This document shows, piece after piece, positions 2,272-62,707 of a stretch of 64,000 bases of DNA. Origin of the DNA: Euborellia annulipes. Taxonomy: Eukaryota; Arthropoda; Insecta; Dermaptera; Anisolabididae. Each line of letters starts with the position of its first letter. Within the stretch, counting starts at the first letter, position 1. The notes beneath the pieces were generated by a model, which saw nothing but the letters and a program-made list of their open reading frames with translations, was not told where the DNA came from and made no database searches. The position numbers and the translations under genes were made by a program. Location: NCBI GenBank assembly GCA_023213315.1, contig JAKCPI010007974.1:1-64000 (forward strand). The letters run 5' to 3'.

Positions 2272-2308
2272 TCCACGTTTCGGCCACTGGTCTAGGCCAT
2301 CTTCAGAG
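2272..2308 (-). ncRNA. Hammerhead-ribozyme-like motif (core intact, cleavage site altered)
   Basis: On the minus strand the core CUGAAGA (2300-2306) is followed by one extra U, a GGCC/GGCC stem II and GAAACGUGG. The catalytic CUGANGA and GAAA boxes are intact. The cleavage triplet reads GUG where GUH is required, so cleavage is unlikely. TTGGCTGC lies downstream (2233-2240), as in the other copies. Confidence 0.5.
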
Positions 2309-2319
2309 CCGGAGGCGAG

Positions 2320-2411
2320 AATAAATAAAATTTAAATTTTCATTCAAAATTAAAATTTCATTTTTCATTCAAAATAAAATTTCATTTTTACTCAAAATTA
2401 AAATTTCATTT
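2320..2411. repeat. Short AT tandem array, left part
   Basis: Degenerate tandem units built on AAAATTTCATTTTTCATTC. The array continues at 2701-2812 after interruption by a SINE. Confidence 0.6.
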
Positions 2412-2700
2412 GCCCTCGGCGCTTGGTGTAGAGGTTAAAGCATGTGCATCAACATCTCGCTATACTCATAACGTCAGCGAGTTCAGACCCTTTTCATGGC
2501 AGTCCGATGATTTTATTTACAGCCAATTTGGATACCAAATGACTTCAAATAAGAATGCCTGGACTCCTCAATAATATGTCATATTATCAATAACGGATAT
2601 CGTTAAAGTCTTATATGTCCTGAGTTGCCGAAGAGACAGTGTGAATATGTGCGTGAAGTGTGAGTGTGAATGAGAAAACATTAGTGTTCAACATGTTCAT
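2412..2700 (+). mobile_element. tRNA-derived SINE (SINE-t), diverged copy
   Basis: It starts GCCCTCGG and carries the degenerate box A region, then GCAGTCCGATGATTTTATTT, and the 3' block GAGTTGCCGAA...GTGTGAATGAGAAAA seen in full-length copies. It interrupts an AT tandem array, and the array sequence AAAATTAAAATTTCATTT flanks both sides. That is compatible with a target duplication but confounded by the array. Confidence 0.75.
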
Positions 2701-2812
2701 CAAAATTAAAATTTCATTTTTCATTCAAAATTAAATTTCATTTTTCATTCAAAATTATAAAATTAAAATTTCATTTTTCATTCAAAATTTGCACTCAAAA
2801 TTAAAATTTAAT
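2701..2812. repeat. Short AT tandem array, right part
   Basis: Continuation of the units described at 2320-2411. Confidence 0.6.
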
Positions 2813-2972
2813 TTATTTACTTCCAGCCACAAAGAAATGCCTAACAATAAATTTATATAAAAATATTTTATTTATTTATTCTTATTCTTATTTATAAAAC
2901 TAGCATTCATTTGGAAAATCGCTCGCTGAGGATAATATTTGCGCCTCCCTTATTTGGAAAACGCTGCCCTAG

Positions 2973-3618
2973 AGGCTATAATATTGAGAATTCAAATATT
3001 CGCACACTTGAATTTTTTTATTTAGAGTAAGAACTATGTATTTTTATTATTCGTCATAATTTTTTTGAAACTATAGGACGTCGAAGATATTTTGTGGCAA
3101 AAAAAGCATACAATTAGAGAAACTAACACTAACGCCTATATAGAATGAAAAAATTTTATTTTGAGTTTTTATTTTCTCAAAAATGGCTCTAACGATTTTG
3201 ATTGATATTCATAAATCAATTATTTTTTAGATGCTTTTTAATATGTATATTCTCATTTCGCTATTGACATTGTTTGAAGCACACTTACTCTTGTACTTCA
3301 TAGGAAAGGATAGGAGAAAATGGATGCCATGCAAAAAGCATATTTTCGAATTTAAAATTTAATTATGATATATACAGTGCGTTTTTTTTTTTTTTTATTT
3401 TAAAATATAAATTCCTAAAGAGAGAATCTCCATAAAGGCTTTATACACATATTCATAGTTATTTATTATATTTTATTAAAAAGCATGTTTTCTCTACTAG
3501 AATTTATTAAACCAACGGGACCATGTTTATTATAATAATAAAAAAAAAAAATAAAAGTAAAATAGAATAATTTTTACAATTATAATCATTGTAAAACAAA
3601 AATATGTTTAGAAATGGA
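2973..3618. other. No gene recognised
   Basis: AT-rich. A weak Hp-like stretch (AAAATGGCTCTAACGATTTTG near 3180, and CATAGGAAAGATAGGAGAAAATGG near 3300) suggests an old Hp-family remnant in minus orientation between about 3170 and 3330. Confidence 0.35.
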
Positions 3619-3880
3619 AAAATCTGGTGTGAGTGGTCGCACAGCACAACTTTCACTTACCGAAGGTAAGAGCAAGTTGTGTTCTGTGCTTGACATACCA
3701 GATTTTTTTTTTGTCTCGACATATAATTAAAGAAATAAAATTTATAAACATGGGAAAATATTTATTTTGTCATCATGGCAACCATTTCTCCTATCTTTCC
3801 TATGAAGTACAAGAGTAAAGTAGTCTTCAAACAATTTTGAGAGGAAAATGACAATATACATTTTAAAGAGCATCTAAATC
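3619..3880 (+). mobile_element. Hp family, 5' part
   Basis: It begins AAATCTGGTGTGA and folds into the family's 5' terminal hairpin (about 85 nt, closing at CATACCAGATTT). Then come the GGGAAAATATTTAT and CATGGCAACCATTTCTCC blocks, ending after AAAGAGCATCTAAA. The 3' half is missing. Confidence 0.8.
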
Positions 3881-4794
3881 TTAATTCCTATTTTTCCATT
3901 TTATATTTTAACTTGAGTGCAAATTTTATCACCCACACTTTTTTTTTTTTTTAATTTTATATTTTATTAAAGAAATTATAGAAAATCAATAAGCGATTTA
4001 TTTTACTTACGAGAAGAATTTCAATCCACTTAAAATAAAAGAATAAAAATTATTAAGGACATTCAACTCTGGAGTTTTGAACAAATAACATGAAATGCAT
4101 CAACAGCCTTGATAAAATATTTTTACATTTTTTAATCAACTTTATTTTGGACTTTTTTTTATTTTAATATAAGATAATTCCGGGAGGAGTGTCCTGCCTT
4201 TATATTAAAGATAAAATATTACATACCAAATTAAACTTGATTATATGCTTCAAGGTATTTACTGATTAAAAATTAACACCTTTTTACATAATCATCAGAA
4301 GTGAGTGAACAAAAATGTAAATAAAATATAGATAAAACTATTTGTGAAGATAGAGGGTTTATTAAAAATAACAAAATAAGACAAGAGGGGCATCTATCCC
4401 AATGAAGCTGGGGCATCTCTCCTAGTGTCAAGTACAATTCTGACTAACAAATAAAAGAATTTAATTGATTATTGATAATCAATCCAATTGAAATAAATTG
4501 ACGGGATGTAAACCCATGACCCCTAGTACAAAAGGCAGAAACTCTACCACTGAGCTATGGGCCAAGGGCCTAAGCAATATTAACAATTTATCATCCTGAA
4601 GATGGAAATGATGCGTTCCCTAAACATCGAAAAAACATATTTATTCTATTGGCTGTTGGCTACCTACATCTTCTTGTTCCTCTGAATGATCATTGGAACT
4701 ACTTGAGTATAAACAACGATTCCCAATAATTGAAGATCTTACTTTTATTCTACTTCTCACTTCATAGCCACAATTTTACTCTAAAGATAAACTA
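3881..4794. other. AT-rich spacer with a tRNA-like remnant
   Basis: No gene seen. At 4499-4566 the minus strand reads like a tRNA or SINE head, with an A box (TAGCTCAGTGGTAGAG) and a weak B box (GGGTTTACATCCC). The anticodon arm does not pair well, so I treat it as a tRNA-derived pseudogene or SINE head, not a working tRNA. Confidence 0.5.
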
Positions 4795-4841
4795 TCAATA
4801 TTGGAGTGGAGTCAGGAAAGAATAAAAAACAATTTGTTCTG

Positions 4842-4877
4842 TCGACGTTTCGAGCGCCAATCACGCTCTTCCCCGGG
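4842..4877 (-). ncRNA. Hammerhead-like motif, degraded core
   Basis: Stem II (GAGCGU/GCGCUC) and GAAACGUC are kept, but the CUGANGA box has decayed to CGGGGA. It is probably inactive. Confidence 0.4.
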
Positions 4878-5241
4878 ACCACAACAAAAATTTTATTAGA
4901 TATTATTATGAACAAATATAATACATTTTTTCATCATAATATTATTAATATATATGTACGAGGATGTTACTTACAAACTAATGACAATATTTACGGATAG
5001 TGGTAAAATGAGTATCATTTGACATCAATAAAATGAACTTAAATCAACACTAACAATGCAAAATTTGTTCATTTTTTGATTTAACCAATGATTTGATATT
5101 AAAACAGTCATGTGTATGAATGCAAGGTAACTTGAACAATAAATTTCTTCCTCGTTTTTAATTTTATTTTTAAAGGATTTTTTATATAAGCTGGACATTG
5201 AATTTTTATTTTGATATTCTTAATTTTTTTAATAATTGTAC

Positions 5242-5475: not shown

Positions 5476-5953
5476 TTCCGATTATACTAATCGAAATGTC
5501 TTTTACTTTCTCTTACCCTATATATGAAATATATAGAGAGAAAGTATTCAATTCATATTAAAAATTCGATTTCGAGATTTTTTTTTCCTATTTTTATTAT
5601 CAATATTTTTTTACTTTTTTTTTTTTTATAAAACACTTTAAATTTTTTTTCTCTTTTTAAATCCACCCCCGCCATCTTCTCCTTCACCGCCGTGCATTTA
5701 AAACAGGCGGAATGAATTTTTTTTTTAATTTTTGGTTAAATCAAAAAAATTAACAAATCTTGTTAATTTAAGTTCAGTTTATTGATGTCAAATGATAATC
5801 ATTTTACCACTATCCGTAAATATTGACATTAGTCTGTAAGTAAGATATTATACATACTGTATATATTAATAATATTATGATGAAAAAATGTATTATATGT
5901 AGAAAAAAAAATGTTTTGTTCATAATAATAAAATTTTTGTGGTGGCCGCAGGG

Positions 5954-5990
5954 CCCGAGGAAGAGCGTGATTGGCGCTCGAAACGTCGAC
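5954..5990 (+). ncRNA. Hammerhead-like motif, one core change
   Basis: It reads CCGAGGA (U4 changed to C), an extra A, stem II GAGCGU/GCGCUC and GAAACGUC|GAC. Stem I is weak. It is the partner of the motif at 4842-4877. Confidence 0.45.
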
Positions 5991-6032
5991 AGAAAAAATT
6001 GTTTTTTATTCCTTCCTCTCCAATATTGTTAG

Positions 6033-7672: not shown

Positions 7673-8190
7673 TTACTTTCTCTTAGCCTATATATGAAAT
7701 ATATGGGAGAGAAAGTATTGCGATCATGTCAAAAATTCGATGTCGAGATTTTGATGGATATACATGTTTTGAGGTCCCCTGAGTCCAAAAAAAGTGGGTC
7801 CCGCAAATTGGTCTGTGTGTATGTATGTGTGTGTGTGTGTGTGTGTGTGCGTGTGTCTGTATGTGTGGACAGATTTTTAGCATGAAGGAATTGAGCTACC
7901 GGATTGAAATTTTATATTTAACTTAGGTACCTTCCCACACGCTCAAAATAAGCTTTTGAACAAATCGGCCAAAAAGTACTAGTACTTTACTGATGTACTT
8001 TTTCAGTTTTTTTCGATTTTCTCAAAATTCCCTCCAAGGATTTTTTTTAAAATTCAAAAATCAATTATTTTTTAGATGCTCTTTAAAATGTATATTCTCA
8101 TTTTGCCGTTGAAATCTTCTGAAGACCACTTTACTCTTGTTCTTCATAGGAAAGATAGAAATGGTTGCCATGGTAACGGAATTTAAATCT
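7673..8190 (-). mobile_element. Hp family copy
   Basis: Minus-oriented copy from the 3' terminal hairpin (TACTTTCTCTTAGCC...GGGAGAGAAAGTA) through the CTCAAGGGGACC-type block, the (TG)n tract (7817-7852), the GTACTAGTACTTTACTGATG palindrome and CATGGTAAC. The family's 5' hairpin is absent. Confidence 0.8.
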
Positions 8191-9474: not shown

Positions 9475-9748
9475 GGGCTTTTGAGCCCTGCACGTCGGCA
9501 ACCATTTACGGCGGCCTGTATCTTTAGTTGCTTCAAAATTGACATTCCCCCTGCAACTCTATTAAAATTAGATAAATAATTATGCATGTATTGTACCCAA
9601 ATAATCATCTCCGGAAGGATTGATGATGGGATAATAAAATTTTCTCGAAACGTTTCGTTAATTAGTGAAAATCGGAGGAGACTTTGATATTTTTGCTTTT
9701 GCTCTTTTTTTCTGTTGTGAAAATAAACAGCCACTGACTTCAAAGAGG
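9475..9748. other. No feature recognised
   Basis: Unique sequence. Overlapping short ORFs on both strands carry no recognisable domain. Confidence 0.4.
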
Positions 9749-9749
9749 A

Positions 9750-11082: not shown

Positions 11083-11154
11083 TAATTATATTTTAATATG
11101 AGGATGTGGCATAAGGGCAGCCAAGGCGAAAAATAAAATAAAATTTCATTTTTT

Positions 11155-11191
11155 GTCGACGTTTCGAGTGCCGATCGCACTCTTCATCAGG
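11155..11191 (-). ncRNA. Minimal hammerhead ribozyme motif, intact core
   Basis: The minus strand reads CUGAUGA (11184-11190), an extra A, stem II GAGUGC/GCACUC around a short loop, then GAAACGUC|GAC. Stem I forms between upstream CAUUUUUG-A-C and downstream GACAAAAAAUG with one A-A mismatch. Stem III would be ACGU, a 4-nt palindrome that can only pair between two molecules. Confidence 0.75.
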
Positions 11192-11393
11192 TCAAAAATG
11201 ATGTCAAGTTGTCAGGTTAGTTGACATGGCAGTCTAGCAACGTTTTTACCAATTTATATTCACTTGAAAATTCTCTTTACTGTACTTTTTACTGTACTCT
11301 TTGAGTAAAGAGAGTTTTCAAGAGAATATAAATTGGTAAAAACGTTCCTAGACTGCCATGTCAACTAACCTGACAACTTGACATCATTTTTGT

Positions 11394-11430
11394 CCTGATG
11401 AAGAGTGTGATCGGCATTCGAAACGTCGAC
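11394..11430 (+). ncRNA. Minimal hammerhead ribozyme motif, intact core and stems
   Basis: Core CUGAUGA (11395-11401), an extra A, stem II GAGUGU/GCAUUC (two wobble pairs replace the Watson-Crick pairs of its sister), then GAAACGUC with GUC as a legal cleavage triplet. Upstream UUUUUGUC pairs perfectly with downstream GACAAAAA as an 8-bp stem I. Palindromic ACGU gives stem III in a dimer. TTGGCTGC follows about 40 nt downstream. Minimal HHRs of this design are known from Penelope-like elements. The unpaired base between A9 and stem II is unusual and may lower activity. Confidence 0.82.
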
Positions 11431-11786
11431 AAAAAATAAAAAAAATTTTATTTTATTTTTCGCCTTGGCTGCCCTTATAGCCACATCCTCATATCATAAT
11501 ATCCAGCCATCAAGAAACAACTTGTAATTATATTTTATTTTTAAGAAAATTTAAAAACACTAGGTTATAAGTTAATTAAGTTAAAAATTAACATTTTTAA
11601 CAATTAATGCACATTTCGACATTCATATCTCATAAACAGAAATGAAAAATTTTTCAAAGCACATGATGATGATACGACATATTAAAAAATAAATCTTTGA
11701 AACTTATAACCTGATGTGTTTCAACTTTAATTTTTATATAGCTTATAGGCTACTTAATGTTTCAGAGCCTTGACTTTTATTTTGTA

Positions 11787-16056: not shown

Positions 16057-16218
16057 TTCAGAGGAAGCTCATTTTACACTCTGCTAACATTACAAATAAC
16101 AGCCAAAATTTTTTGCATAAACAAAGCCATTTGATCTCGGTAACTTCAGTGAACATTCTGAAATCTCTAAAATCTTGGCTGTTATTTGTAATGTTAGCAG
16201 AGTGTAAAATGAGCTTCC

Positions 16219-16252
16219 TCTGAAGAAGAGCCTTTGTGCCTTCGAAATATTA
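16219..16252 (+). ncRNA. Hammerhead-like motif, intact core, AUAU stem III
   Basis: Core CUGAAGA (16220-16226), an extra A, a partly paired stem II, then GAAAUAUU. Upstream UUCCU pairs with downstream AGGAA as stem I (5 bp). The palindrome AUAU replaces ACGU as the intermolecular stem III. Confidence 0.55.
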
Positions 16253-16293
16253 GGAATTAAACTCATTTGGAAAAATATAAAACATTGTGTTTT

Positions 16294-16999
16294 TACTTTC
16301 TCTTACCTATGTATATATGTAATATATATATAGAGAGAAAGTATTGGATTGATGTCAAAAATTCGATGTCGAGATTTTGATGGATCTTCACGTTTTTAGG
16401 TCCCCTGAATCCAAAAAAGTGGTTTTCGCGACATGGTCTGTCTGTGTGTGTGTGTGTGTGTGTGTGTCTGTCTGTCTGTGTGTCTGTCTGTGTGTGTGTC
16501 TGTGAACAAAATATCTCAAGAACGAAAAGAGCTAGGAAGTTGAAATTTTATATTTAAGTTCGGCACCCCCATGGGACGTGTCACGAAGCTTTTGAACAAA
16601 ATCGACCGAAGAGTACTAGTACTTTACTGATGCACTTTTTCAGTTTTTTTCGATTTTCTCAAAATTTGCTCCAACGATTTTTTTTAAATTCAAAAATCAA
16701 TTATTTTTTAGATTCTCAATAAAATGTATATTCTCATTTTGTGATTGAAATCTTCTGAAGACCACTTTACTCTTGTACTCCATAGAAAAGATAGGAGAAA
16801 TGGTTGCCATGGTAACAAAATATAAATATTTTCCCATACTTATAAATTTTACATCTTGAAAATCGAATGTACCGTACTGTCGGAAACTAAATACATGTCG
16901 ACACAAAAAATCTGGTGTGACAAGCACAGTACACAACTTTCGATTACCGAAGGTAAGAGAAAGTTGTGTGCTGTGCGCCAGTCACACCAGATTTTTTAT
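16294..16999 (-). mobile_element. Hp family, complete copy
   Basis: Both terminal hairpins are present, with a (TG)n tract near 16443. It is closely similar to the copies at 42832 and 51185, sharing CATGGGACGTGACACGAAGC-type sequence, and forms a subgroup with them. Confidence 0.85.
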
Positions 17000-17262: not shown

Positions 17263-17666
17263 ATGAGAAGATTGAATTTGATCTATTTTAAGGAGTTAAT
17301 ATTAGGCTAGATTTTACTAAAAAAACAACGTAAAATCGCCGCGTTCAGTAACATGAAGCCGATTTCTCTTTTTTGTTACCAACATTGCCACAGTGCTAAA
17401 TCCCTGTGATATGAATATAACACCTACAATAACAAAAATTGAACGATATGAATTTTTACTTTACTTTAGTCGGTACGTGTATTTTGTTTTTATTTTTTCC
17501 TTTATTAGACAATATTTTTTAATCTGCCCACGCCCCTTCAGCGCCATCTCAATACCCCCTAATTTTCTCTGGATCTTCTGCTGCCCCCCCCCTGAAAGTC
17601 ATAAATGCCCACAGAAGGCGTTATCGTCCACGTTTGATCCCACTGTGAAAGGTTAACGAAACTTTT
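17263..17666. other. No gene recognised
   Basis: Unique sequence. The ORF at 17393-17656 has no recognisable domain. Confidence 0.4.
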
Positions 17667-18345
17667 TTTTACTTTCTCTTACCTATGTATATATGTAATA
17701 TATATATAGAGAGAAAGTATTGGATTCATGTCAAAAATTCGATGTCGAGATTTTGATGGATCTTCACGTTTTGAGGTCCCCTGAATCCAAAAAAGTGGTT
17801 TTCGCGACATGGTCTGTCTGTGGGTGGGCGGGTGGGTGTGTGTGTGTGTGTGTGTGTTCAATTTTAAGCAGGAAGGAATTGAGCTAGGAGGATGAAATTT
17901 TATATTTAAGTTAAATACCTCCCGGGACCGGAAAAATAAGCTTTTAATCAAAATTGGCCAAAGAGTACTAGTACTTTACTGATGTACTTTTTCAGTTTTT
18001 TTCGATTTTCTCAAAATCCGCTCTAACGATTTTGATTAAAATTCAAAAATCAATTATTTTTTAGATGCTCTTTCAAATGTATATTCTCGTTTTGCCCTCA
18101 AAATTGTTTGAAGCACACTTTACTCTTGTATTTCATAGGGAAGATAGGAGAAATGGTTGCCATGGTAACAAAATATAAATATTTTGCCATGTTTATGATT
18201 TTGACATCTTAAATTTCTAATATATTGGCGGAAACTAAATATATTTTCGATACAAAAAATCTGGTGTGACAAGCACAGAACACAACTTTCGATTACCGAA
18301 GGTAAGAGAAAGTTGTGTGCTGTGCGCCAGTCACACCAGATTTTC
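17667..18345 (-). mobile_element. Hp family, complete copy
   Basis: 3' hairpin at 17669-17720, an interrupted (TG)n/(GGGTG) tract near 17820-17858, the GTACTAGTAC palindrome and the 5' hairpin ending GTCACACCAGATTTT. Confidence 0.85.
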
Positions 18346-20041: not shown

Positions 20042-20161
20042 TAAAACAATATTTTTTTATCTCCTAATTTATTATATAAAAATTCTTCATTAGAAGAAAC
20101 GAACGGGAACCTTTCCGGAAACAGCTGCCAGGGGAAATAAAAAAGCTTTAAATTCAGTTGC

Positions 20162-20196
20162 CGACGTTTCGAGTACTAGTCGGACTAATCTTCAGG
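20162..20196 (-). ncRNA. Hammerhead-like motif, intact core
   Basis: Core CUGAAGA (20189-20195) and GAAACGUC (20163-20170) are intact. Upstream UUGCC pairs with downstream GGCAA as stem I (5 bp). Stem II is out of register and looks degraded. A related downstream block CCTGGCAGCTG lies near 20121-20132. Confidence 0.55.
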
Positions 20197-20283
20197 GCAA
20201 GCAAAATAGTCAGAGGGTTGTGCGGTAATGAATAATTTCATGTTTAGGCCTATACATGTTCTTAATAGTTCTTAAAATCGATA

Positions 20284-28182: not shown

Positions 28183-28633
28183 TTCGCTCCCACCAGAGAG
28201 CGCTGGCTTACATTTGACTAGTTCTTTTTTTGACATTAGCTCTTCGTTCATGATTCTTTCGTTCTTTTCTTTCACTCGCGCTATTTGTTTTATCATTAAA
28301 CGATTCAGTAGCTTTTTTATCTAAAGGAATATCTAACTGCACCGGACCGAAACAATTAGTTCGGGACCCTACAAGTTGTTTAAAAAAAGAAAATCCTTAC
28401 CTTAAGACTAACTCTCGGATCCCTACAAGTTCTTTAAAATATTCTTGATGAACATTTTTTAATCTAAAACAGAACAGACCTTAATTAACCGAAGGTCTAG
28501 ATACTAATATTTTAATTTATTTCAGGAGTAGCACTATTGAACCAGAAGTCATGACATTCGACGAATGTTCGCACAAACGCATTGTCAGGAGTTGCCAAGA
28601 GCCTCTATGTGCTCGAGGCAAACAGCACTTTGT

Positions 28634-28670
28634 CCTGATGAAGGCCAGAAAATAGGCCGAAACGCAGACA
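28634..28670 (+). ncRNA. Hammerhead motif, intact core, altered cleavage site
   Basis: CUGAUGA (28635-28641), an extra A, stem II GGCC/GGCC, then GAAAC. Stem I is kept (UUGUC/GACAA), but the cleavage triplet reads GCA where GUC is expected, so it is probably inactive. TTGGCTGCC follows at 28718-28726. Confidence 0.6.
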
Positions 28671-28764
28671 AGCGTGTGAAATAAAGCTAAAGATAAATTT
28701 ATTTTTCTTTATTGCTTTTGGCTGCCTTGAATATCCTCACTACTCACTGATATTTTAATAATTA

Positions 28765-34579: not shown

Positions 34580-34745
34580 GATTGGCAGCCTGGAAAAAAA
34601 TCAGACAAAAATATAATCAATCTTTATCCAAATATTTATTGCCGACGTTTCGGACGCAAGTCGCGCCCATCCTCAGGACAATCGGTAGTCAATAAAATAC
34701 AGATGGCGTATTTTTTATATTAACAATATAAAAACACAATTCATG
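34580..34745 (-). mobile_element. HHR half element
   Basis: Related in opposite orientation to 61614-61800: both share the HHR, an AT spacer, GGCTGCCAA and, on the other side, ACAGATGGCGTATTTTTT-type sequence. Only one arm of a fold-back is present. Confidence 0.65.
34643..34677 (-). ncRNA. Minimal hammerhead ribozyme motif, intact
   Basis: CUGAGGA (34670-34676), an extra U, stem II GGGCGC/GCGUCC (6 pairs including one wobble) and GAAACGUC with a legal GUC cleavage site. Upstream AUUGUC pairs with downstream GGCAAU as a 6-bp stem I. Palindromic ACGU serves as the dimer stem III. Confidence 0.78.
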
Positions 34746-35302: not shown

Positions 35303-35359
35303 GGGTAAAAATGAGAAAAGCAGCTAAGGTTATTTGTTTATTCGATTAATTCACACAGC

Positions 35360-35394
35360 TGACGTTTCGGTTCCCTGTTTGAACCATTCTCAGA
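35360..35394 (-). ncRNA. Hammerhead-like motif, one core change
   Basis: CUGAGAA (G8 to A), an extra U, stem II GGUUC/GAACC and GAAACGUC. AGCU/AGCU gives a short stem I. It is likely inactive because G8 is catalytic. Confidence 0.55.
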
Positions 35395-35503
35395 GCTATA
35401 ATCATACATATACAAACGATATCAGAAATTATTCCAATTATTACAATCAATAGAAATTCAAATTATATTTTACCTAGCGAAAAGTCATTATGAAATCGTC
35501 ATA

Positions 35504-35729: not shown

Positions 35730-35883
35730 CTATTCAAGAAAATTAGAAATGAGTTCAATTTACGATATGTTTTGTCAGAATGTTTTTATTGAATAATCTT
35801 TTAATTGACAAACAAAAATTCATATGACAACTGTCGTTATCAAAATCAAAACATAAAACACAAACATTAAGCGAGCCACTACA
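35730..35883 (-). repeat. 3' LTR of the mini LTR element
   Basis: On the minus strand it begins TGTAGTGGCTCGC and ends GAATAG, near-identical to the 5' LTR. Confidence 0.85.
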
Positions 35884-36639
35884 CTTAGCTAACTTTCCAA
35901 ACTTGCTGTGATACCAACAAATTTTTTTCCTGCCAGAACTTGAAGATCTGTTATATCTTCTTTCTTGCGAATTAAATCGGTAGGGGCTTCTTCCGCGACC
36001 AAGTTGAGCGACCCGCAATGTTAAATCCTCCATTTGGCTTTTAAGTTGATGCACCGTAGTCAAAAGACTATTATTAACTTCGACCGTTTCTTGTGGCTTG
36101 ATGGGAGTAATTTGAGAAATAGCCGTTTCTCCAACAGTTTCACAAATCTTATCCGCCATTACTACCAATCGGTCTAAAGTGTCACCACTTGCCGTTAAAA
36201 TAGTTCTTACTTGATTCGGCAAACGCTGCAACCATAACGATTTGAGCACCTCTTCACTGATCTTTCCAGCTGAAAGCTCCTTCATTTCTCGAAGAAGATG
36301 GGAAGGCTTTTTGTCTCCCAAATCAACTTCGGTTAACAACCGCTGCAGCTTTTTTTGTTCTGACTCAGAAAAGCATTCCTCCAATCTAGCTTTGAGAACA
36401 GAGTACATATTTTCAATAGGAGGAGTTAAAATAATGTCGCTCACCTGCTGCAGAATGTCACTTTCAATAGCGGCTACTATATAATGGAATTTAGTAACCT
36501 CTGAGGTGATGCCGGCTGTTACAAATTGCGACTCTACCTGACAGAACCACAATTTTGGATTCAACTTCCAAAAAGGAGGCAACTTCAAAGAAACTCTTGC
36601 TACTTCATTTCTATTACCGAGCTGTTGTTGTTCGGCCAT
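35755..36639 (-). CDS. Truncated Ty3/gypsy-type Gag polyprotein
   Basis: A 294-codon frame starting at ATG 36639, shortly downstream of the primer-binding site. Residues 20-32 (LPPFW...LWF) and the following alpha-helical region (about 30-170) match the capsid-like Gag of arthropod Ty3/gypsy retroelements, which assembles particles and packages RNA. Residues 241-253 (CWYH...FG..A..C) are the start of the family's C-terminal zinc-binding motif. The frame then crosses straight into the 3' LTR: residue 253 is encoded by the first codon of the LTR, and residues 254-294 are LTR read-through, not Gag. Protease, reverse transcriptase, RNase H and integrase are all absent. The frame is open up to the deletion, so loss was recent or the frame was kept. 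If expressed it could at most give a Gag without a complete zinc knuckle. No sign of domestication beyond the open frame. Confidence 0.85.
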   Translation of the reverse strand: MAEQQQLGNRNEVARVSLKLPPFWKLNPKLWFCQVESQFVTAGITSEVTKFHYIVAAIESDILQQVSDIILTPPIENMYSVLKARLEECFSESEQKKLQRLLTEVDLGDKKPSHLLREMKELSAGKISEEVLKSLWLQRLPNQVRTILTASGDTLDRLVVMADKICETVGETAISQITPIKPQETVEVNNSLLTTVHQLKSQMEDLTLRVAQLGRGRSPYRFNSQERRYNRSSSSGRKKICWYHSKFGKLAKCSGSLNVCVLCFDFDNDSCHMNFCLSIKRLFNKNILTKHIVN

Positions 36640-36659
36640 TTCAATAAAAGATCAACCTT

Positions 36660-36834: not shown

Positions 36835-37060
36835 GTGAATTTTATACATTGTTGAAAAATTCTTATATAATAAATATCCTGGTCGTCTCACACTGGGTAT
36901 ATATTTATTGTATAAGAATTTTTCAACAATGTATAAAATCCTTTCATAATGAAAATATTCATCAGATAAAATATAATTTGAATTTCTATTGATTGTAATA
37001 ATTGGAATAATTTCTGATATCGCTTGTATATGTATGATTATAGCTCTGAGGATGGTTCAA
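36835..37060 (+). repeat. 226-bp direct duplication, right copy
   Basis: See 35504-35729. Here the HHR motif it enters is continuous with the rest of the fold-back arm. Confidence 0.85.
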
Positions 37061-37080
37061 ACACGGAACCGAAACCTCAG
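37045..37080 (+). ncRNA. Hammerhead-like motif, altered cleavage site
   Basis: CUGAGGA (37046-37052), an extra U, stem II GGUUC/GAACC, then GAAACCUC, where G16.2 and the palindrome are lost. Stem I AGCU/AGCU is kept. Confidence 0.6.
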
Positions 37081-37187
37081 CTGTGTGAATTAATCGAATA
37101 AAGAAATAACCTTAGCTGCTTTTCTCATTTTTACCCTCTTATTAATACAACATCTCATCTCTTAATTGTTTATGTATTTATTTAGGA

Positions 37188-39265: not shown

Positions 39266-39833
39266 AAGAAAAAAAAAAAAAAAAAAAAAAAAATTAAAGC
39301 CGCTTAAAATTGATTAAATCTCGCAATGAAAAATAATAAAAATTATTATATAAATAAATTTTTTATTTTTTTTTTTTTAAATAGGTCTGAGATAGGAGTC
39401 TGGTCAAGAGAAACACATAGAGGGACACCCCGGTATTTTAGGCCCATATACATAATATTAAGAGATTTGCATTATTTATTGCCTGATACGGGTTGATTGA
39501 AAAATTGCGGCACTTAATTAAGGGCGGGCCCGAGCCACCTCGAGGGGGGGTCCAGGGGGGGGGCTAGTCATAAATTTCATTAGACGCCTTATACTGCCTT
39601 ATATAGTCGGGGTGGGGTGGGGGGAGGGGGAGAAATAATTCTAAACCCCCCCCCCCCCCCCCCCCCCCCCATCAAAAATTTCTGGCTACGCCTATGGTAG
39701 AGTTATTTAAAAATTTAATTAAATAAATAAAAAAAATATAAAGTAGAAGTTAAAATTTTGCTGGAACAGATCGTTAAGGTTATGGATATGGAGAAAATAC
39801 ATACCAGCGGTTTCTTTCCACATTTATTTTGGC

Positions 39834-39869
39834 AAATATTTCGGAATGCCTACGCAATCCATCTTCAGT
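39834..39869 (-). ncRNA. Hammerhead-like motif, intact core, AUAU stem III
   Basis: CUGAAGA (39862-39868), an extra U, stem II GGAUUGC/GCAUUCC with one mismatch, then GAAAUAUU. Stem I is short (3 bp). Confidence 0.6.
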
Positions 39870-40105
39870 GCATCAAATTAAACATATGTGGAGCGTGTTT
39901 TAATGAAAAATTTTTTTGTCATATCCATAACCTTAACGATCTGTTCCAGCAAAATTTTAACTTCTACTACGAGCTCGTCCAAAATCCGAAGAAATGGACT
40001 ATATTTTGAGAAGATTCAAAGGACATATAAAAGGCAACGTGGGCAACTTGACAACACTTATTACAAAATCATTAACACACGCTCCACATATGTGTAATTT
40101 GATGC

Positions 40106-40142
40106 ACTGAAGATGGATTGCGTAGGCATTCCGAAATATTTG
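40106..40142 (+). ncRNA. Hammerhead-like motif, intact core, AUAU stem III
   Basis: CUGAAGA (40107-40113), same stem II as its partner, GAAAUAUU. Stem I UGCA/UGCA (4 bp). The cleavage triplet AUU is permissible (NUH). Confidence 0.62.
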
Positions 40143-40236
40143 CAAAATAAATTATTTTAATGTGGAAAGCAACTCGCTGTATATTTTCTCCATATCCATA
40201 ACCTTCAAAAAATTTAATTCTATTAGTACAAAAGTA

Positions 40237-42174: not shown

Positions 42175-42831
42175 GCTAACCTTTCATTTTCTCGAAACAA
42201 TAGAAAATAGACTTACGTCACTTTCAAAATAAACGATCCATTTATAGGTAGGAGAGCGTAAAATTATTCCTTTTTTTTTGTTTAATAGAATATTTTACTA
42301 TTTAATTACAAAAGGGTTGTTTATATTAGGTTCAAATTAATTTGTAAACATAGGTATAATTTAAAGTACTTCTAAAATTAGGTAGTAAAAAAATAATAAA
42401 AAATAATTGCCAAGCTTTCATAGGCATGGTCAAAAGTTAGTTTATTCATTCGAGCCTAATTGTACACAAAAGAGCGAAGTTATTTCGGTTGAAAAAAAAA
42501 AAAAAAAAATTGAAACGAAATTTAATTCTTAATCAGAGAGAACTTGGTCAAAAATTCACAACTATCGATTAACAAAAAAAAAAAAAAAAACAAAAGCTCC
42601 TGACACAATACTTGTTAATATTTTATTAGACACTTTGTTATTTTTATTCTGCTTTCGTAATTCCGGCTCTCGAGGAAGAGAATAATTTTGTCCCTGTGTT
42701 TAAGAATTATGGAAATCATAAATTTCAAACAAGAGAGCGTTTTTTTTTTTTTTTTTTGCTGCAAGTACATAAAAAAAAAAGATTAAAATATTTATTGAGA
42801 TAATTTTTTTATTTCTTCTTAAATGCTTTTT
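42175..42831. other. No gene recognised
   Basis: AT-rich with A and T homopolymers. Confidence 0.4.
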
Positions 42832-43520
42832 TTTACTTTCTCGTACCTCTATATATATGTTAATATATAGAGAGAGAAAGTATTGGATTCATGTCAAAAA
42901 TTCGATGTCGAGATTTTGATGGATCTTCACGTTTTGAGGTCCCCTGAATCCAAAAAAGTGGTTTTCGCGACATGGTCTGTCTGTCTGTGTGTCTGTCTGT
43001 GTGTATGTGTGTGTGTGTGTCTGTGAACAAAATATCTCAAGAACGAAAAGAGCTAGGAAGTTGAAATTTTATATTTAAGTTAGGCACCCCCATGGGACGT
43101 GACACGAAGCTTTTGAACAAAATCGACCAAAGAGTACTAGTACTTTACTGATTCACTTTTTCAGTTTTTTTCGATTTTCTCTAAATTTGCTCCAACGATT
43201 TTTTTTAAAATTCAAAAATCAATTATTTTTTAGATTCTCTATAAAATGTATATTCTCATTTTGTGATTGAAATCTTCTGAAGACCACTTTACTCTTGTAC
43301 TCCATAGAAAAGATAGGAGAAATGGTTGCCATGGTATCAAAATATAAATATTTTCCCATACTTATAAATTTTACATCTTGAATTCAATTGTACCCTACTG
43401 TCGGAAACTAAATATATGTCGACACAAAAAATCTGGTGTGACAAGCACAGTACACAACTTTCGATTACCGAAGGTAAGAGAAAGTTGTGTGCTGTGCGCC
43501 AGTCACACCAGATTTTTCTT
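42832..43520 (-). mobile_element. Hp family, complete copy
   Basis: Both terminal hairpins are present. Very close to the copies at 16294 and 51185 (shared GAACGAAAAGAGCTAGGAAG and CCCCCATGGGACGTG), so this subgroup amplified most recently of those seen. Confidence 0.88.
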
Positions 43521-46592: not shown

Positions 46593-46648
46593 TTCTTAAA
46601 TTAAAATTAAATAGTTTCAAAGGTTTTATTAATTAAAAAATTAACACT

Positions 46649-46683
46649 TGATACGTATTTCGACAATTTCTTGTCATCATCGA
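46649..46683 (-). ncRNA. Hammerhead-like motif with extended palindromic stem III
   Basis: The core reads UCGAUGA (C3 to U, U4 to C), then an extra U, perfect stem II GACAA/UUGUC with a GAAA loop, and GAAAUACGUAUC. Upstream CACUU pairs with downstream AAGUG as stem I. AUACGUAU is an 8-nt palindrome just before C17, a longer dimer stem III than in other copies. The core changes probably abolish cleavage. Confidence 0.5.
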
Positions 46684-46699
46684 AAGTGATTACATTCTA

Positions 46700-49899: not shown

Positions 49900-51184
49900 A
49901 ATGCTTCGATAGGACTATTGTAAAAAAAAATTGTTAAATTTTCTTTAAATGTAATTATTATCAAACCAATTGTTTTGTTTATATTATTCAAATAAATCTC
50001 ACGTGTTTTATTTATATTACCTTCTTCGAAAAATGAAAGGAATTTTGTGTGTACTTTTATCAAGGAGAGAGAAGAGGAGAAAAGAATAAAATGAAGAGTA
50101 AACAGTGCAAAAGTGGATTAGTTGCCAAAAAGAGAAGAAAACGAATGGAATGAGTGAGTGAGTGAGTGGGCGAGTGGGGGGGGGGGGGTTGTGAATAAAA
50201 AGGGGAAGAAGACGTGGGTTTTGAATAGGGGGGGGGGGGTGGCTTTTTTCACACAGCTCCGAGTTGAATACCTCTACCCAAAAATGGATGCGTCCTGTCC
50301 AGCTGCAAGATAAGGCGTTTTATCGCCTCGTAAATTCAATCAGACTTCGCGCGCGAATTTCCCCACCACCTTTCTCTACTTTTTTTTTCCCGTCTACCCT
50401 TTCGCGAATTTCTTCTTTTTTTTTTGCCCCTCCCCTATTCTCTTTTCAAGCGCGGCGCGAATGGAAGACGCTAATTAAATTTACGCCGATTTAACGCGAA
50501 AAATATACAGAGAACATTGCTTTGGATTGATCAGTGTGTGAGTCAAATGGCTCGCGGAGATAAATGAAAATGATAAAAAAAAAAAAACTCAATAGAAACG
50601 GAAATTTTCATTAATTAAATCAGAGCTTAAGAAGAAGTGAGTTACTTAACGAATAAGGGATAAAAATCTTTGAATAAATGAAATGAAGAGTTTCCATTTC
50701 ATTTTTGACTTTTACTCAATGTGTTTTTTTTTTTTTTTTTACGAATTCCGAGAAATTAAAACCAACTTTATCCTTAGCATAGCGTTTTTTTTTTTTGTAA
50801 TGAACAAAAAAAGCCTTTGTATTTTTTTAAGCCCTCTTTGGTACCGATACATTAAGTTTGGGGATTTTGTATCATACCTCCGGATCTGCTTCTAAAAAAG
50901 GATCTCGATCCTCAAATCTTGTTCTGTACTCAATTTGCATAGACTTGGAATAAAATCTAATCTAGTCTAACCTTTCTTTCCTTTTTTAATAAGGAGGGGT
51001 TGCAGGTACTAATAAGAGCCCTTCTATAACCATGTCCATTTAACAGAGATTCTTTTTTTTGATCGGGAGGGGGGGGGATTTCAAAAATAAATTCTCAGAG
51101 AATTGTCTGATTCTAGATCTAAATTTTTCTCCCATCAGGTTTCAATTACAATTTACATGTTTTTTAATGACATCTGTATGATTT
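49900..51184. other. No gene recognised
   Basis: It contains a (GAGT)n tract near 50150-50172, G runs and a less AT-rich patch at 50250-50480. The 76-codon ORF at 50264-50494 shows no domain. Confidence 0.4.
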
Positions 51185-51858
51185 TTACTTTCTCTTAACT
51201 CTATATATCTGTTAATATATAGAGAGAGAAAGTATTGGATTCATGTCAAAAATTCGATGTCGAGATTTTGATGGATCTTCACGTTTTGAGGTCCCCTGAA
51301 TCCAAAAAAGTGGTTTTCGCGACATGGTCTGTCTGTGTGTGTGTCTGTCTGTGTGTGTGTCTGTGAACAAAATATCTCAAGAAAGGAAAGAGCTAGGATG
51401 TTGAAATTTTATATTCAAGTTAGGCACCCCCATGGGACGTGACACGAAGCTTTTGAACAAAATCGACCAAAGAGTACTAGTACTTTACTGATGCACTTTT
51501 TCAGTTTTTTTCGATTTTCTCAAAATTTACTCCAACGATTTTTTTTTTAATTCAAAAATCAATTATTTTTTAGATTCTCAATAAAATGTATATTCTCATT
51601 TTGTCATTGAAATCTTCTGAAGACCACTTTACTCTTGTACTCCATAGAAAAGATAGGAAAAATGGTTGCCATGGTAACAAAATATAAATATTTTCCCATA
51701 CTTATAAATTTTACATCTTGAAAATCGAATGTACCGTACTGTCGGAAACTAAATACATGTCGACACAAAAAATCTGGTGAGACAAGCACAGAACACAACT
51801 TTCGATTACCGAAGGTAAGAGAAAGTTGTGTGCTGTGCGCCAGTCACACCAGATTTTT
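51185..51858 (-). mobile_element. Hp family, complete copy
   Basis: Both hairpins are present. Same subgroup as 16294 and 42832. Confidence 0.88.
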
Positions 51859-51898: not shown

Positions 51899-52112
51899 AT
51901 GTACCTGGTCGTCTCATACTGTGTATATATTTATTATATAAGAATTTTTCAACAATGTATAAAATCCACTATGACACTTTCATAATTTTTCGCCAGCTCT
52001 GAGGATGGTTCAAACACCTAACCGAAACGTCAGCTGTGTGAATTAATCGAATAAAGAAATAACCTTAGCTGCATCACTCATTTTTACCCTCTTATTAATA
52101 TAACATCTCAGC
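51899..52112 (+). mobile_element. HHR half element
   Basis: Matches one arm of the 35303-37172 element (CCTGGTCGTCTCA, AATTTTTCAACAATGTATAA, CTTAGCTGC, TTTTTACCCTCTTATTAATA). It is preceded by a SINE-t tail remnant (TAACACACACTTTTTTTTCC). Confidence 0.75.
51998..52033 (+). ncRNA. Minimal hammerhead ribozyme motif, intact core
   Basis: CUGAGGA (51999-52005), an extra U, stem II GGUU/AACC, GAAACGUC with a legal GUC site. Upstream CAGCU pairs with downstream AGCUG (5-bp stem I). ACGU palindrome at stem III. It is the best-preserved member of the 35-37 kb family. Confidence 0.72.
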
Positions 52113-52671: not shown

Positions 52672-53390
52672 TTAAAATTTCATAATATTTACCTTAATTT
52701 CTAAGAAAGAGATTTTATTGCTTTTAAATGCCTGTTTTAGTGCTTTTTGGTAAAACGTATCCACTAGCCTCCGCATAGTATCTTGCAGCCACTCTGCCTC
52801 CAGGCCGACTCTAATTATGAAATTGTTGATCCCAGGTGGTGGGTTAGCCAGATATCTGAGAGATTTGTTTTCTACCTTCTCTAGAATTAAAATATTACTT
52901 TTGGCGGCACGCCCCCACCACACAGGAGCTCCATATTATAACCGAGGGCCACCCAGAATCCATTTTTCATCTATTCGGCCGGTTTAAAGGCCACAGCAGT
53001 TTGGCAGCAACTTTTGCACTGGCAGCGGCTTTTCTAATATGCGTTCCAAACTTCAGTCTTTTATCCAGATGAACTCCCAAGTATTTAACCAAGGACGACC
53101 AATCTAGTTGGGAGGACCCAAATTTAATTTTCCTTCTCAGATGTCTTCTGCGTGAGCTTAACATGATAGTTTCTGATTTAACGAAAGCCGCCACTTATTA
53201 AAGTACTTATTTTCCTCAGTTATGTCTCCTTCCATTCTCTTTACTAAACTCTTGTAGTTTCGGTGAGAATAGTAAAGGGCTGTATCATCAGCAAACTGAG
53301 CTAACTCTGCTAATTTCGGCGTTTTAATATCTTTTGTACAGCAATGTGAAATTAGAGCACCTTGGGGCGTGTCCGCTTGTATTGTAATTA
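52672..53390 (-). pseudogene. Jockey-like non-LTR reverse transcriptase, degraded fragment
   Basis: Reading 53390 down to 52672, the minus strand encodes PQGALIS (53356-53367 for PQG.), AQFADDTALYYSHR (FADD catalytic aspartates at 53281-53295), then VKSETIML, KYLGVHLDKRLKFGTHI, LLWPLNR, VWWG-like and EKVENKSLRYLANPP. This order is the palm and thumb region of a LINE reverse transcriptase, closest by eye to the Jockey group. There is a frameshift near 53185 (the WRLSLN and KSE parts are in different frames) and a stop after NRPNR (about 52967). No endonuclease, upstream RT or 3' tail is seen. It is dead. Related active elements could supply the machinery for SINE copies, but no shared 3' sequence links it to SINE-t. 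Confidence 0.85.
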
Positions 53391-53397
53391 CAAGTGA

Positions 53398-53545
53398 AAT
53401 ATCAAAAAATGCGGGTCAATGAAATAACCCAAAAACGAGAAATTCCTCGGTACTCAAATTTTATACTTAAGCTAAGAACCCATTTAGTAGGCGCCTTGAC
53501 GATTTTGAATAAAATCGGCCAAAAAGTACTAGCACTTTACTTTAT
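53398..53545 (-). mobile_element. Old Hp family fragment
   Basis: ATTTTATACTTAAGCTAAGAAC, GATTTTGAATAAAATCGGCC and AAAGTACTAGCACTTTAC are diverged Hp blocks. Confidence 0.5.
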
Positions 53546-58597: not shown

Positions 58598-58662
58598 GGG
58601 GAGATAGACAGACTCAGGGGGGACCTCAAAACATGTATTTCCATCAAAATCTCGTCTTAGAA
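58598..58662 (+). mobile_element. Hp family fragment
   Basis: AGACAGACTCAGGGGGGACC, CTCAAAACATGTATTTCCATC and AAAATCTCG only. Confidence 0.55.
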
Positions 58663-59720: not shown

Positions 59721-59861
59721 ATTAAATTCAAGTAAGATAACACAAGATTTTTTGTTTCAATAGTTAACACTTTATATACGTTTATTTATTTAATACACGT
59801 ATTTCAACACATTCTCCTATTAAATCATAATATTTTTCAGGATTCTATGATGGAGAATATA

Positions 59862-60186
59862 ATACTACAATAATAGGCGAAGCCGCAGTGACAACCATCC
59901 AAAATACATGTGTTCGATAGGTGAAAATTAAAAATTATTCAAATAATTTTTAATATCTTATTAAAAGTTTTAGGCTAACTGTTTTTGCAAAGTTATACAG
60001 TTTCGATTTCATGAATCAGGCTCCGACGATGATTCATGAGATCGAAACTGTATAAGTTTGCAAAAACAGTCAGCCTAAAACTTTTAATAAGATATTAAAA
60101 ATTATTTGAATAATTTTTAATTTGCACCTATCGAACACATGTATTTTGGATGGTTGTCACTGCGGCTTCGCCTATTATTGTAGTAT
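59862..60186. mobile_element. Near-perfect fold-back element
   Basis: Arms of about 160 bp match almost without mismatch (ATACTACAATAATAGGCGAAG; AACCATCCAAAATACATGTG; TTTTAGGCTAACTGTTTTTG) around a short centre near 60020. The low divergence suggests recent origin. It lacks an HHR core: the ATCGAAACTG at the centre has no CUGANGA partner. Confidence 0.8.
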
Positions 60187-60229
60187 TAAATCATAACTTT
60201 CAACTAGAGCCAACGGTTAGCAGTTTAAA

Positions 60230-60880
60230 AATTAATGTTTGAAGTATACTTTACTGATGTTTTTCAGATTTTTCAAATTCACTTTCCGACTCTTCCTTCC
60301 ATAGGGCCAATGCTAAATCCCTAACTTCGATTCAAAAGTGGGTTTAAAAAAATTTTCCCTTTATGAAATTCCGTATTTATTTAGGATTCTCTATTGTGTA
60401 TAAAATATCAAAATATGAGATTAAAATTTTGAAAATTAACCTTAGATTATTTCAAACAGTCAACATTTAAAATACACAGAGCCTATGAAAATTTTGAGTC
60501 AATTGACTTTTTTTAAACCCTTTTCGGCCACGGAGGCCAATTAGGGGTTATTCCTTTATTTATATAATTTTTAAACACAAGTACCGATGGCTACAATGGA
60601 GCATTCCACACGCTGATTACTCGGGGTCACCAATCCCGATCGCCGCGCTTGGCATCACTTAACCGCAATGATTATGGTGACTGTTGCTCTTCTTCGTAGT
60701 CAGGCCTCCCCAATTGACCTTTTTTTTGTTACTTAAGTGGTGCAAGTGGTCAAGTTAACTAAGGTGCTATGAGAAAATAAATATATCTCGACACAAAAAA
60801 AATCTGCTGTGCTACAGCATAGTACCTTCGTTAAGAAAAAGTTATGTACTGTGCAGAAAGTCACACCAGATCAAGAATAC
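60230..60880 (-). mobile_element. Hp-B copy with nested 5S-like SINE
   Basis: TTCAAATTCACTTTCCGACTC, GGATTCTCTATTGTGTATAA, CAGTCAACATTTAAAATACAC and a decayed terminal hairpin (AAATCTGCTGTG...GTCACACCAGAT). The SINE at 60524-60725 splits it. Confidence 0.75.
60524..60725 (-). mobile_element. 5S-rRNA-like SINE candidate, copy 3
   Basis: The minus strand carries GGTTAAGTGATGCCAAGCGCGG and, 14 nt later, TTGGTGACCCCGAG, then TGTAGCCATCGGTACTTG and an AT tail (ATAAATAAAGGAAT). GACTTTTTT-type sequence flanks it, with TTGACTTTTTT at 60508 and TTGACCTTTTTTTT at 60714, a possible target duplication. Best-preserved copy of the three. Confidence 0.6.
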
Positions 60881-61613
60881 ACTCTACTTTATTTAATGAA
60901 ACTTCAGTATTGAGCTTAATGATAGATTCATGGAGTTGTAAAATTCTTTTTATTAAAATCGAAGAATATATTTGTGATTAATTTCAAAAACAAGTATTCG
61001 ATTTCAGTGCTTTTGACTATTATACTCCTTTTGCCTGTGGGATAATAACAATAAGAGGGGGAGGGGGAGGTTCCCTATTGTTCCTCTGTTTCAATCTAGG
61101 CACGTTGGTGGAGGCGCGTGTCTAATTTAAACTTAACAAATGAGATTAGACTTCACTCCCATTCCAACAGCGACGAGGAAATTTTAAAAGAGCCCCCCCC
61201 CCCCCCTTCCTCTACCCCCACACCCATAAGACTTGTATTATTACATCTCTTCTAATTTAACATCTTAACTAAAAATACGATAAATATTTTTTTTTTTATT
61301 TCCCCCCTAAATAAGAAAAATAAATAAAGTTTCTTGCTCTTTATAATGATTTTTATTTTTTACGGAAAAAAAACTTTATCTCGTTATTTAAGTTTAACGA
61401 ATGTTTTTTTTTTTAATTTTTTTTTTCGTATCATCAGGTCAAATTAATTTTCTTTATAATGCTGAGGTAGAGGCAGAATAATTGATCAGTAAGAGCAGGA
61501 TGGCAGCCAGGAATCTATTTAAACAAAAAAATTTTAATTTTAGATTTTATTTCAATCGCCATTTAATGCGAGAGGCGTCGATAAATGCCATTGCAGTTTC
61601 AAATAATACATTA
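60881..61613. other. No gene recognised
   Basis: Unique, with poly-C at 61193-61206 and T runs. Confidence 0.4.
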
Positions 61614-61800
61614 CACATTCTTAAAGTGTGATTTTATATTGTTAAAAAAAAAATACGCCCATCTGTATTATGCTAACTATCACTTGTCCTGAGGAAGAAC
61701 GCGATTTGCGTCCGAAACGTCGGCAATTGAGATAAAAAAATTAGATAAAGAAAGATTTAAAATTTTTTAACTAATTTGATTTCTGGCTGCCAACCTGGTC
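61614..61800 (+). mobile_element. HHR half element
   Basis: Same family as 34580-34745, opposite orientation: AAAAATACGCCCATCTGTATT, HHR, AT spacer, CTGGCTGCCAACCTGGTC. Confidence 0.7.
61688..61722 (+). ncRNA. Minimal hammerhead ribozyme motif, intact core
   Basis: CUGAGGA (61689-61695), an extra A, stem II GAACGC/GCGUCC (one mismatch), GAAACGUC. Upstream UUGUC pairs with downstream GGCAA (one wobble). The sister at 34643 has GGGCGC in the same stem position. Confidence 0.75.
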
Positions 61801-62589
61801 TTACTTATTAATTTTCTTTTTTTTCTCTTCATTTTTCTATATTATGACATCTTAAAATGTGGAGTGCTCATTGTAAATGCAGGGGCGCATGGGCGCCAAC
61901 TCCATGGGGAGCAAGGGGCTCGAGCCCCCCCCCCCTCCTCCCCGATGTTGAGGGAAGAGAACCCCCCCCCCTGAACCATTATTCGTATAAAAAATTCACT
62001 AAGACACCGTTGAAAAACATTTATTTTTCAATAAATAATTAGCCCCCGGGGGGGGGTAGTTAGCCATCACATTTTTTTTTAATTATGAGTTATTTACTTT
62101 AAGGAGAGATTTTAATAAGCCTTTTAAGGAGAAACAAACGTAAAACAGCGATAGAAGAAACGGGGAATTTTCTTTTCGTGCGTAAACGCACTGGCAACAC
62201 TGACGGTTAGAACCAGGGTTAGGGTACAATTTAACCTAAATCTTAGATTATTTTGAGGTTAATTTGTGTGTTCCTGTTTTGTTTATTGAATTACAACCAT
62301 TTTTTGTTGTATTTACAGTATGTGTATAAGCATATTCAACCGTAATGTCATTTGTGATATTAATTATTTCTATTTGAAATAATAAACTTAACAAAAAATA
62401 GAAATACAAAATGTAGACGTATGTAATTTTGGAATGATTGATTGTGACTAACTTCATGGGAATGAATGAAAATGGCGGGGAAATTTGAATCTTACTTCAC
62501 AGGAATGCCTGCAGATGGCTCTGATGTCGTTGTATATAAAAAGGCACGTAACGGAAATGACAGTTAGTTCACTTGAGTTGGAGCAAGTG
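61801..62589. other. No gene recognised
   Basis: Near 61879, CAGGGGCGCATGGGCGCCAAC resembles a hAT MITE end, but the partner end is not convincing. The 61-codon ORF at 61857-62042 lies over it. One TTAGGG-like AGGGTTAGGGT at 62215 is isolated and not telomeric. Confidence 0.4.
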
Positions 62590-62707
62590 CACAATACTTG
62601 AGAACTGTTGCAGAATAAGCAGCTGAAACGTAGTACAGTATTTATATTTTTTAATAAATAATTGATATCAAAAATGTGGTCTATTATTAAAAATTCCCCT
62701 AATAATA
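62590..62707 (+). mobile_element. HHR-related half element
   Basis: One arm of the 23338-23661 family: GCAGAATAAGCAGCTGAAACG, TACAGTATTTATATTTTT and AAAATTCCCCTAATAATAA. The hammerhead core is lost. Confidence 0.55.

Follow-up and report, generated by a model that had tools for sequence, protein, structure and literature searches.

Minimal hammerhead motifs, probably of Penelope-like elements, in Euborellia annulipes and an intron that may split their stem I

Hammerhead motifs in the window and across the genome

We analysed a 64,000-nucleotide stretch of Euborellia annulipes DNA (contig JAKCPI010007974.1 of assembly GCA_023213315.1, positions 1 to 64,000; hereafter ‘the window’), which carries numerous minimal hammerhead ribozyme (HHR) motifs (Table 1); across the genome, many such motifs lie in short palindromic insertions that place two HHRs head-to-head with their tails outward. 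We consider it likely that these are minimal type I hammerheads of Penelope-like elements (PLEs), located in the leader or pseudo-long terminal repeat (pseudo-LTR), with a stem I that is split by an intron and with short copies that derive from spliced RNA. The pattern CTGANGA..GAAA, with 8–32 nt between the boxes, occurs 24 times in the window, as compared to a mean of 4.15 and a maximum of 10 in 40 first-order Markov resamplings. When a UH site and a minimum of 4 bp in each of stems I and II are also required, with one extra nucleotide allowed before stem II, 6 motifs are found against a mean of 0.025 and a maximum of 1 in the same resamplings. Pattern scans of IMG/VR and prokaryote genomes, which served as a null, returned at least 239 loci, with both stems reaching 4 bp in one among the matches listed.

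A covariance model built from 37 copies located elsewhere in the same genome, window excluded (R2; a second model is referred to as R1), gave 17 HHR matches in the window at ≥23 bits; a control set of 50 prokaryotic loci (371,894 bases), which had been chosen for containing the core pattern, scored at best 21.9 bits with R2. The CUGANGA/GAAA/UH core is intact in 10 of the 17, one of which (37038) has CC in stem III. A 200-kb sample of the same genome (10 kb from the start of each of 20 evenly numbered contigs), which includes eight training copies of the model, yielded 26 matches at ≥24.8 bits, and the density of matches in the window is about twice that of the sample. No hammerhead family was among the 54 matches of an Rfam search of the window at E up to 10, and the remaining matches look like chance or repeats; a tRNA scan gave no match. 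The idea of a composite element made of tRNA-like repeats and HHRs was dropped once the head-to-head form was clear.

A sequence-only reading of this DNA had reported more than 20 hammerhead motifs, about a dozen of them with intact core boxes. The covariance-model search that it had called for, run with a model built outside the window, upholds a presence far above chance but lowers the number to 17, and the ten intact cores come close to the earlier figure. Five sites that it had singled out (11394, 34643, 51998, 20162 and 16219) are HHRs by this search; the sixth, at 46649, has the core UCGAUGA and is absent from the lists of both covariance models, so that the observation is partly confirmed overall. 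The surrounding segment (46640–46690, minus strand) is an HHR-like hairpin whose palindromic AUACGUAU may form an extended stem III in a dimer.

The fold itself is supported by covariation. In 45 distinct copies, chosen partly by stem II pairing and not by stem I, 82.4% of the 675 cells in the three stems are paired, as compared to 59.4% in shuffles, and the covariation score is 0.613 as compared to 0.197 (neither value is reached in any of 500 shuffles); sliding the pairings by 1–3 columns reduces the paired fraction to 27.5–48.2%. Stricter measures separate less sharply: pairs changed on both sides number 13 versus 12.1 in shuffles (120 of 500 reach the observed value), and further pair types 46 versus 41.0 (14 of 500). 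Among 77 copies, stem I is 75.5% paired over six positions (shuffled 45.4%, maximum 51.9%). The earlier description of different complementary arms around a constant core was therefore correct. The copies have the CUGANGA and GAAA boxes, the UH site and the three stems of a type I hammerhead, with two structural departures: one extra nucleotide between CUGANGA and stem II (U in 46, A in 30 and C in 1 of the 77 copies) and a stem III loop of zero nucleotides, which leaves no room for a hairpin. After GAAA, stem III reads CG in 68 copies, UA in 7 and CC in 2, followed by U. Lacking a loop, stem III cannot form intramolecularly, but ACGU and AUAU can each pair with a second copy of themselves, and the loopless, palindromic stem fits the published dimer model.

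Across the genome (903 Mb in 25,949 contigs) a strict HHR pattern occurs 21,592 + 21,400 times (about 43,000), and the reversed control pattern not once. Neighbours within 700 bp, among 100 strict matches listed, are head-to-head in 19 cases, tandem in 1 and tail-to-tail in none. An inverted head-side partner lies within 900 nt in 63 of 88 rows scored, a set that includes loci picked for being pairs (L268–L286), and a tail-side or tandem partner at threshold in 0 of the 88; in two sets not picked as pairs the head-side partner was found in 20 of 35 (L244–L246 overlap) and 8 of 17. At a spacing of 160–190, 1,946 head-to-head arrangements compare genome-wide with 172 + 180 tandem ones. Short tandem arrays of GAAACGTC at G000:C1166:35388-35953, C1978:13674-14434 and C2697:2373-2841 are an exception to the head-to-head rule.

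Table 1. Hammerhead matches and associated features of the window (R1 and R2, covariance models)
Feature	Position	Strand	Evidence
Degenerate HHR (GAAACGUG)	2264..2314	-	R1 27.8 bits; R2 26.2 bits over 2274-2306
Degenerate HHR match	4588..4636	+	R2 29.8 bits
HHR match, changed core CCGGGGA	4836..4884	-	R2 33.6 bits
HHR match, changed core CCGAGGA	5947..5995	+	R2 34.7 bits
HHR match, changed core UUGAUGA	9612..9662	+	R2 30.0 bits
Left target-site duplication TAATTATATTTTA of palindromic insertion	11083..11095	.	
429-bp palindromic insertion of PLE leader, head-to-head; short end on the left, tail on the right longer by 35 nt	11096..11524	.	
HHR, intact core, left arm of insertion, one stem I mismatch	11150..11198	-	R2 51.3 bits
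HHR, intact core, 8-bp stem I, right arm of insertion	11387..11435	+	R2 54.6 bits
Right target-site duplication TAATTATATTTTA	11525..11537	.	
HHR, intact core, stem III AUAU; inverted partial copy before it	16212..16259	+	R2 23.0 bits
HHR, intact core	20155..20203	-	R2 39.4 bits
HHR, UH site lost (GAAACGCA)	28627..28674	+	R2 35.7 bits
HHR, intact core	34636..34684	-	R2 56.1 bits
HHR, G8 to A, TATAG before it (unspliced-type copy)	35353..35401	-	R2 46.2 bits
HHR, intact core boxes, CC in stem III; ~80-nt intron-like insert ending TATAG upstream	37038..37086	+	R2 44.5 bits; L282 alignment
HHR, intact core, stem III AUAU, left arm of palindrome	39827..39876	-	R2 27.0 bits
HHR, intact core, stem III AUAU, right arm of palindrome	40099..40148	+	R2 30.9 bits
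HHR, intact core, spliced-type copy of 37038 family	51991..52039	+	R2 45.5 bits
HHR, intact core	61681..61729	+	R2 48.2 bits

Penelope-like element genes and a proposed intron in stem I

The motif is associated with open reading frames (ORFs) that encode the reverse transcriptase (RT) and GIY-YIG endonuclease of PLEs. Locus L253, which comes from the 200-kb sample and which we otherwise take to be a PLE, has an open frame that terminates in a GIY-YIG-like endonuclease (Pfam E 0.0099, a value below the cut-off); an HHR match lies downstream of it, and an RVT_1 piece on the other strand (E 0.2). A protein search returned one relative (39% identical, E 4.2e-19), and the seven matches of a PDB search with the endonuclease fragment, at E 0.4, were all unrelated. 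Compared with its own genome, the L253 protein gave 2,485 candidates, 150 of them scored, with open frames of up to 865 aa; judged by eye, neighbours in the 150-locus list are head-to-head 14 times, tandem twice and never tail-to-tail. All 14 PLE copies fetched from the 150, picked for diversity before we looked for their HHRs, have an HHR-model match on the gene strand downstream of the endonuclease, and the CUGANGA box is intact in 8 of the 15 PLE loci printed (L253 included). In PLEs the same leader also precedes the ORF; the downstream side was sampled here.

In several families, the similarity between short copies and PLE gene copies of this genome covers the HHR and extends past it; in the window, the HHR at 2264–2314 belongs to the family of PLE copy L340 (84.8% over 92 nt). 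This supports the earlier proposal of minimal PLE-type HHRs in non-autonomous relatives. ‘Several unrelated element families’, as the motifs had also been described, is not the best reading: with the shared extra nucleotide, a GCUG..CAGC stem in many copies and the shared head-to-head form, they look like diverged families of one kind. The interpretation offered from the sequence alone is, taken as a whole, partly supported.

When a palindromic copy is aligned with a PLE region of its own family, the match falls into two blocks in three families (L340/L271, L334/L276 and L331/L269), and the same is seen for L330 against L269: the palindromic copy is without exactly one stretch, which in the PLE copy starts with GT, ends with AG and stops 2 nt before the HHR core. 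In L340/L271, 72 nt of exon are identical. The acceptor-like TAG followed by 2 nt precedes the core in all 12 of the PLE-region copies that the pattern recovered from 14 loci and, by eye, in 15 of the 15 PLE loci printed, as compared to 4 of 73 other copies (one of these is L253) and 2 of 51 head-to-head copies. Within the window, the HHR at 37038 has an intron-like insert, with a donor that now reads CAG/AT, and its family members 51991 and L282 are without the insert.

The predicted junction lies within stem I, with the end of exon 1 forming the distal 5′ strand, which is complementary to the 3′ arm. Its coordinates are about 363/471 in L340, 449/626 in L334 (in gene orientation) and 469/561 in L331. 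For 13 loci (L341, a near-duplicate of L338, and L339, with no clear donor, were left out) the computed stem I energy averages −11.8 kcal/mol in the spliced form versus −4.4 kcal/mol in the unspliced form. In a test across 10 families, the summed pairing of exon ends with their own 3′ arms surpassed all 20,000 permutations, the own arm ranking first in 7 of the 10 families and 2, 2 and 4 in the others, and intron ends have no preference for their own 3′ arm in the same test (p 0.94). An intron-split stem I is thus firmly indicated in three families and is extended to the rest by analogy.

Origin of the palindromic copies

The window contains one complete insertion, 11096–11524, between two copies of TAATTATATTTTA. 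Among 38 head-to-head pairs, a direct repeat scoring ≥12 flanks 19, as compared to 30 of 1,406 mismatched flank pairs, and such pairs have the inverted pseudo-LTRs, the tail at one end and the short target duplications of PLEs. The target repeats are 11–18 bp long, except for the simple AT repeat of L253. In 18 of the 20 pairs listed at a score of ≥10 the distance from HHR to repeat differs between the two ends by 22–39 nt (the exceptions are L277, with 3 nt, and the window pair at 39835, with 47 nt); one end is typically about 32 nt longer, corresponding to the known PLE ‘tail’. The short end is bracketed by a stem, GGCUG..CAGCC, downstream of the HHR, whose outer pair is GC in 15, UA in 4, AU in 3, GU in 2 and unpaired in 6 of 30 copies, with related copies counted more than once (0 of 2,000 shuffles).

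Spliced sense RNA is the probable template of the intron-free palindromic copies, and splicing may act as a gate on the assembly of the ribozyme. We tentatively propose, from sequence comparison, that a spliceosomal intron leaves the hammerhead incomplete in the pre-mRNA and complete only in the spliced mRNA, with unspliced RNA serving as the full-length template and spliced RNA being cleaved or copied as a short leader. Splicing of the PLE mRNA would complete stem I; the PLE RT would start within the RNA, with two possible start sites, separated by about 32 nt, around the GGCUG..CAGCC stem, and would then copy the spliced sense leader; and if both sides of a staggered target cut receive a copy, a head-to-head palindrome flanked by target duplications and tailed at one end would result. 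The unspliced HHR would be inactive, and two spliced HHRs, paired via their self-complementary ACGU (or AUAU), would cleave as a dimer, with splicing as the gate.

A number of observations weigh against this picture. Both forms align well in only three families; donors in 9 of the 13 loci of the energy comparison were picked by eye with complementarity already suspected, making that test partly circular, and some of the 10 families in the permutation test are related. CAG or AAG stands 2 nt before the core in another 18 of the 73 non-PLE copies, which fits exon ends and is no proof of splicing, and the distal part of stem I could also form across the unspliced intron. At a score of ≥12, 19 of the 38 pairs have no duplication, and the repeats of L269 and L253 (2 of the 20 listed) are of low complexity; both GCUG/CAGC boxes occur in only 30 of 93 copies, where other flank positions around this stem have no significant pairing. 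Single tail-to-tail neighbours appear at lower scores (4588+/4836− in the window, L261 and L318). The core is changed in 7 of the 15 PLE loci, to CCGA in L328, L329 and L253 and to AUGA in L335, L336, L338 and L341. Finally, in the Anolis carolinensis PLE, as described in the main text of PMC11167929, cleavage by the HHR needs protein and the HHR is dispensable for insertion in vitro.

The changed cores also bear on an explanation that we regard as somewhat unlikely, namely that the fold is retained for binding a protein or the RT and not for ribozyme activity: the same Anolis assay, in which HHR catalytic mutants inserted normally, favours it too, whereas the columns without variation in the alignment are those of the core residues (although copies were selected for them). 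That these are simply fossil PLE pseudo-LTRs with minimal HHRs of the known kind, the intron being an incidental neighbour, we judge improbable, since the 3′ arm is matched, family by family, by the exon-1 end and not by the intron end, and the acceptor-like TAG keeps a fixed distance from the core in every PLE locus printed. We give similarly little credence to head-to-head copies arising by self-priming on an antisense template, as proposed for Penelope of Adineta vaga. In most of the pairs aligned, near identity of the two arms runs as far as a central loop that begins abruptly, as snap-back would leave, and head-to-head is the most frequent form in Adineta vaga as well (per the accessible text of PMC3846280); an antisense template, however, would retain the intron, which is missing from head-to-head copies in three families, and TAG is in place in only 2 of 51. 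For those copies, the missing intron argues against an antisense template. Snap-back of a sense-derived cDNA would also give near-identical arms and a central loop, and the two arms may stem from one template or from two. We did not use the arm difference in L275 (GGTTG..CAACC versus GGTCG..CGACC) as a sign of two templates, both changes fitting CpG decay.

Two further readings take the elements out of PLEs altogether. Foldback DNA transposons or miniature inverted-repeat transposable elements that happen to contain the motif would account for long inverted repeats with target duplications, but hardly for ends of unequal length or for copies that match PLE regions with the intron removed, and we hold this to be very improbable. 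Metazoan retrozymes, which are tandemly arranged type I HHR elements that have circular RNAs, share the few-hundred-bp size and the type I HHR; tandem neighbours are rare here (1 versus 19 head-to-head in the close-neighbour list, and 352 versus 1,946 genome-wide), and the chance that retrozymes are the explanation seems to us very small.

Other features of the window and comparison with known systems

Between unspliced-type HHR copies of one family lies a 298-aa open frame on the minus strand (35755–36651) with a DUF7041 domain (E 7.6e-27), presumably gag-like. Broken frames at 52672–53415 (minus strand) resemble a non-LTR reverse transcriptase by eye (FADD motif), with no Pfam match, and none of the 10 window proteins scanned has an RT or GIY-YIG domain. 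A dispersed repeat, several hundred bp long and containing GT-rich microsatellites, is abundant (7690–8130, 16290–16980, 17660–18330, 42830–43500 and 51180–51840, plus inverted copies) and is apparently no HHR element. A long poly-G/poly-C tract occupies 39605–39675.

Metazoan retrozymes (described in the accessible part of PMC7229834) are, like the short copies here, non-autonomous elements with type I HHRs; they form tandem repeats, whereas our elements form head-to-head palindromes. Penelope of Adineta vaga is closer: the accessible text of PMC3846280, from which the word ‘ribozyme’ is absent, describes inverted head-to-head pseudo-LTRs, a 31-bp tail optionally at one of them and duplications of 8–10 bp in some copies, all of which have counterparts here. 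There, self-priming on a possibly antisense template and intron retention were inferred, in contrast to the intron-free head-to-head copies of three families reported here, which bear on the choice between a sense and an antisense PLE template left open in that text.

In the Poseidon element PAc of Anolis carolinensis, according to the main text of PMC11167929, the HHR lies at the ORF start, RT starts internally with two start sites bounding the tail, and the enzyme cleaves and extends both target strands in vitro; the end asymmetry of about 32 nt would be the genomic footprint of two such start sites. That main text has ‘intron’ in its reference list only and ‘splic’ nowhere, in contrast to the intron-split HHR proposed here. 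The in vivo role of minimal hammerheads is called a mystery in a review (PMC7761336, in its accessible part), and an intron-split ribozyme strand would link splicing with self-cleavage and retrotransposition.

The hammerheads themselves belong to a class that is already known: citing reviews of Cervera and de la Pena (2014) and Lunse et al. (2017) describe minimal PLE HHRs as type I, without helix III, located in PLE pseudo-LTRs, dispersed in high number and possibly acting as dimers, and the same class, type I and in a PLE pseudo-LTR, is found here. We found no statement of an intron splitting a PLE hammerhead in the open-access papers searched, and the primary papers of 2014 and 2017 may contain one. 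Unlike the minimal PLE HHRs so described, those of Euborellia annulipes appear to have a stem I that is split by an intron in PLE gene copies and joined in spliced short copies, a feature that may be new.

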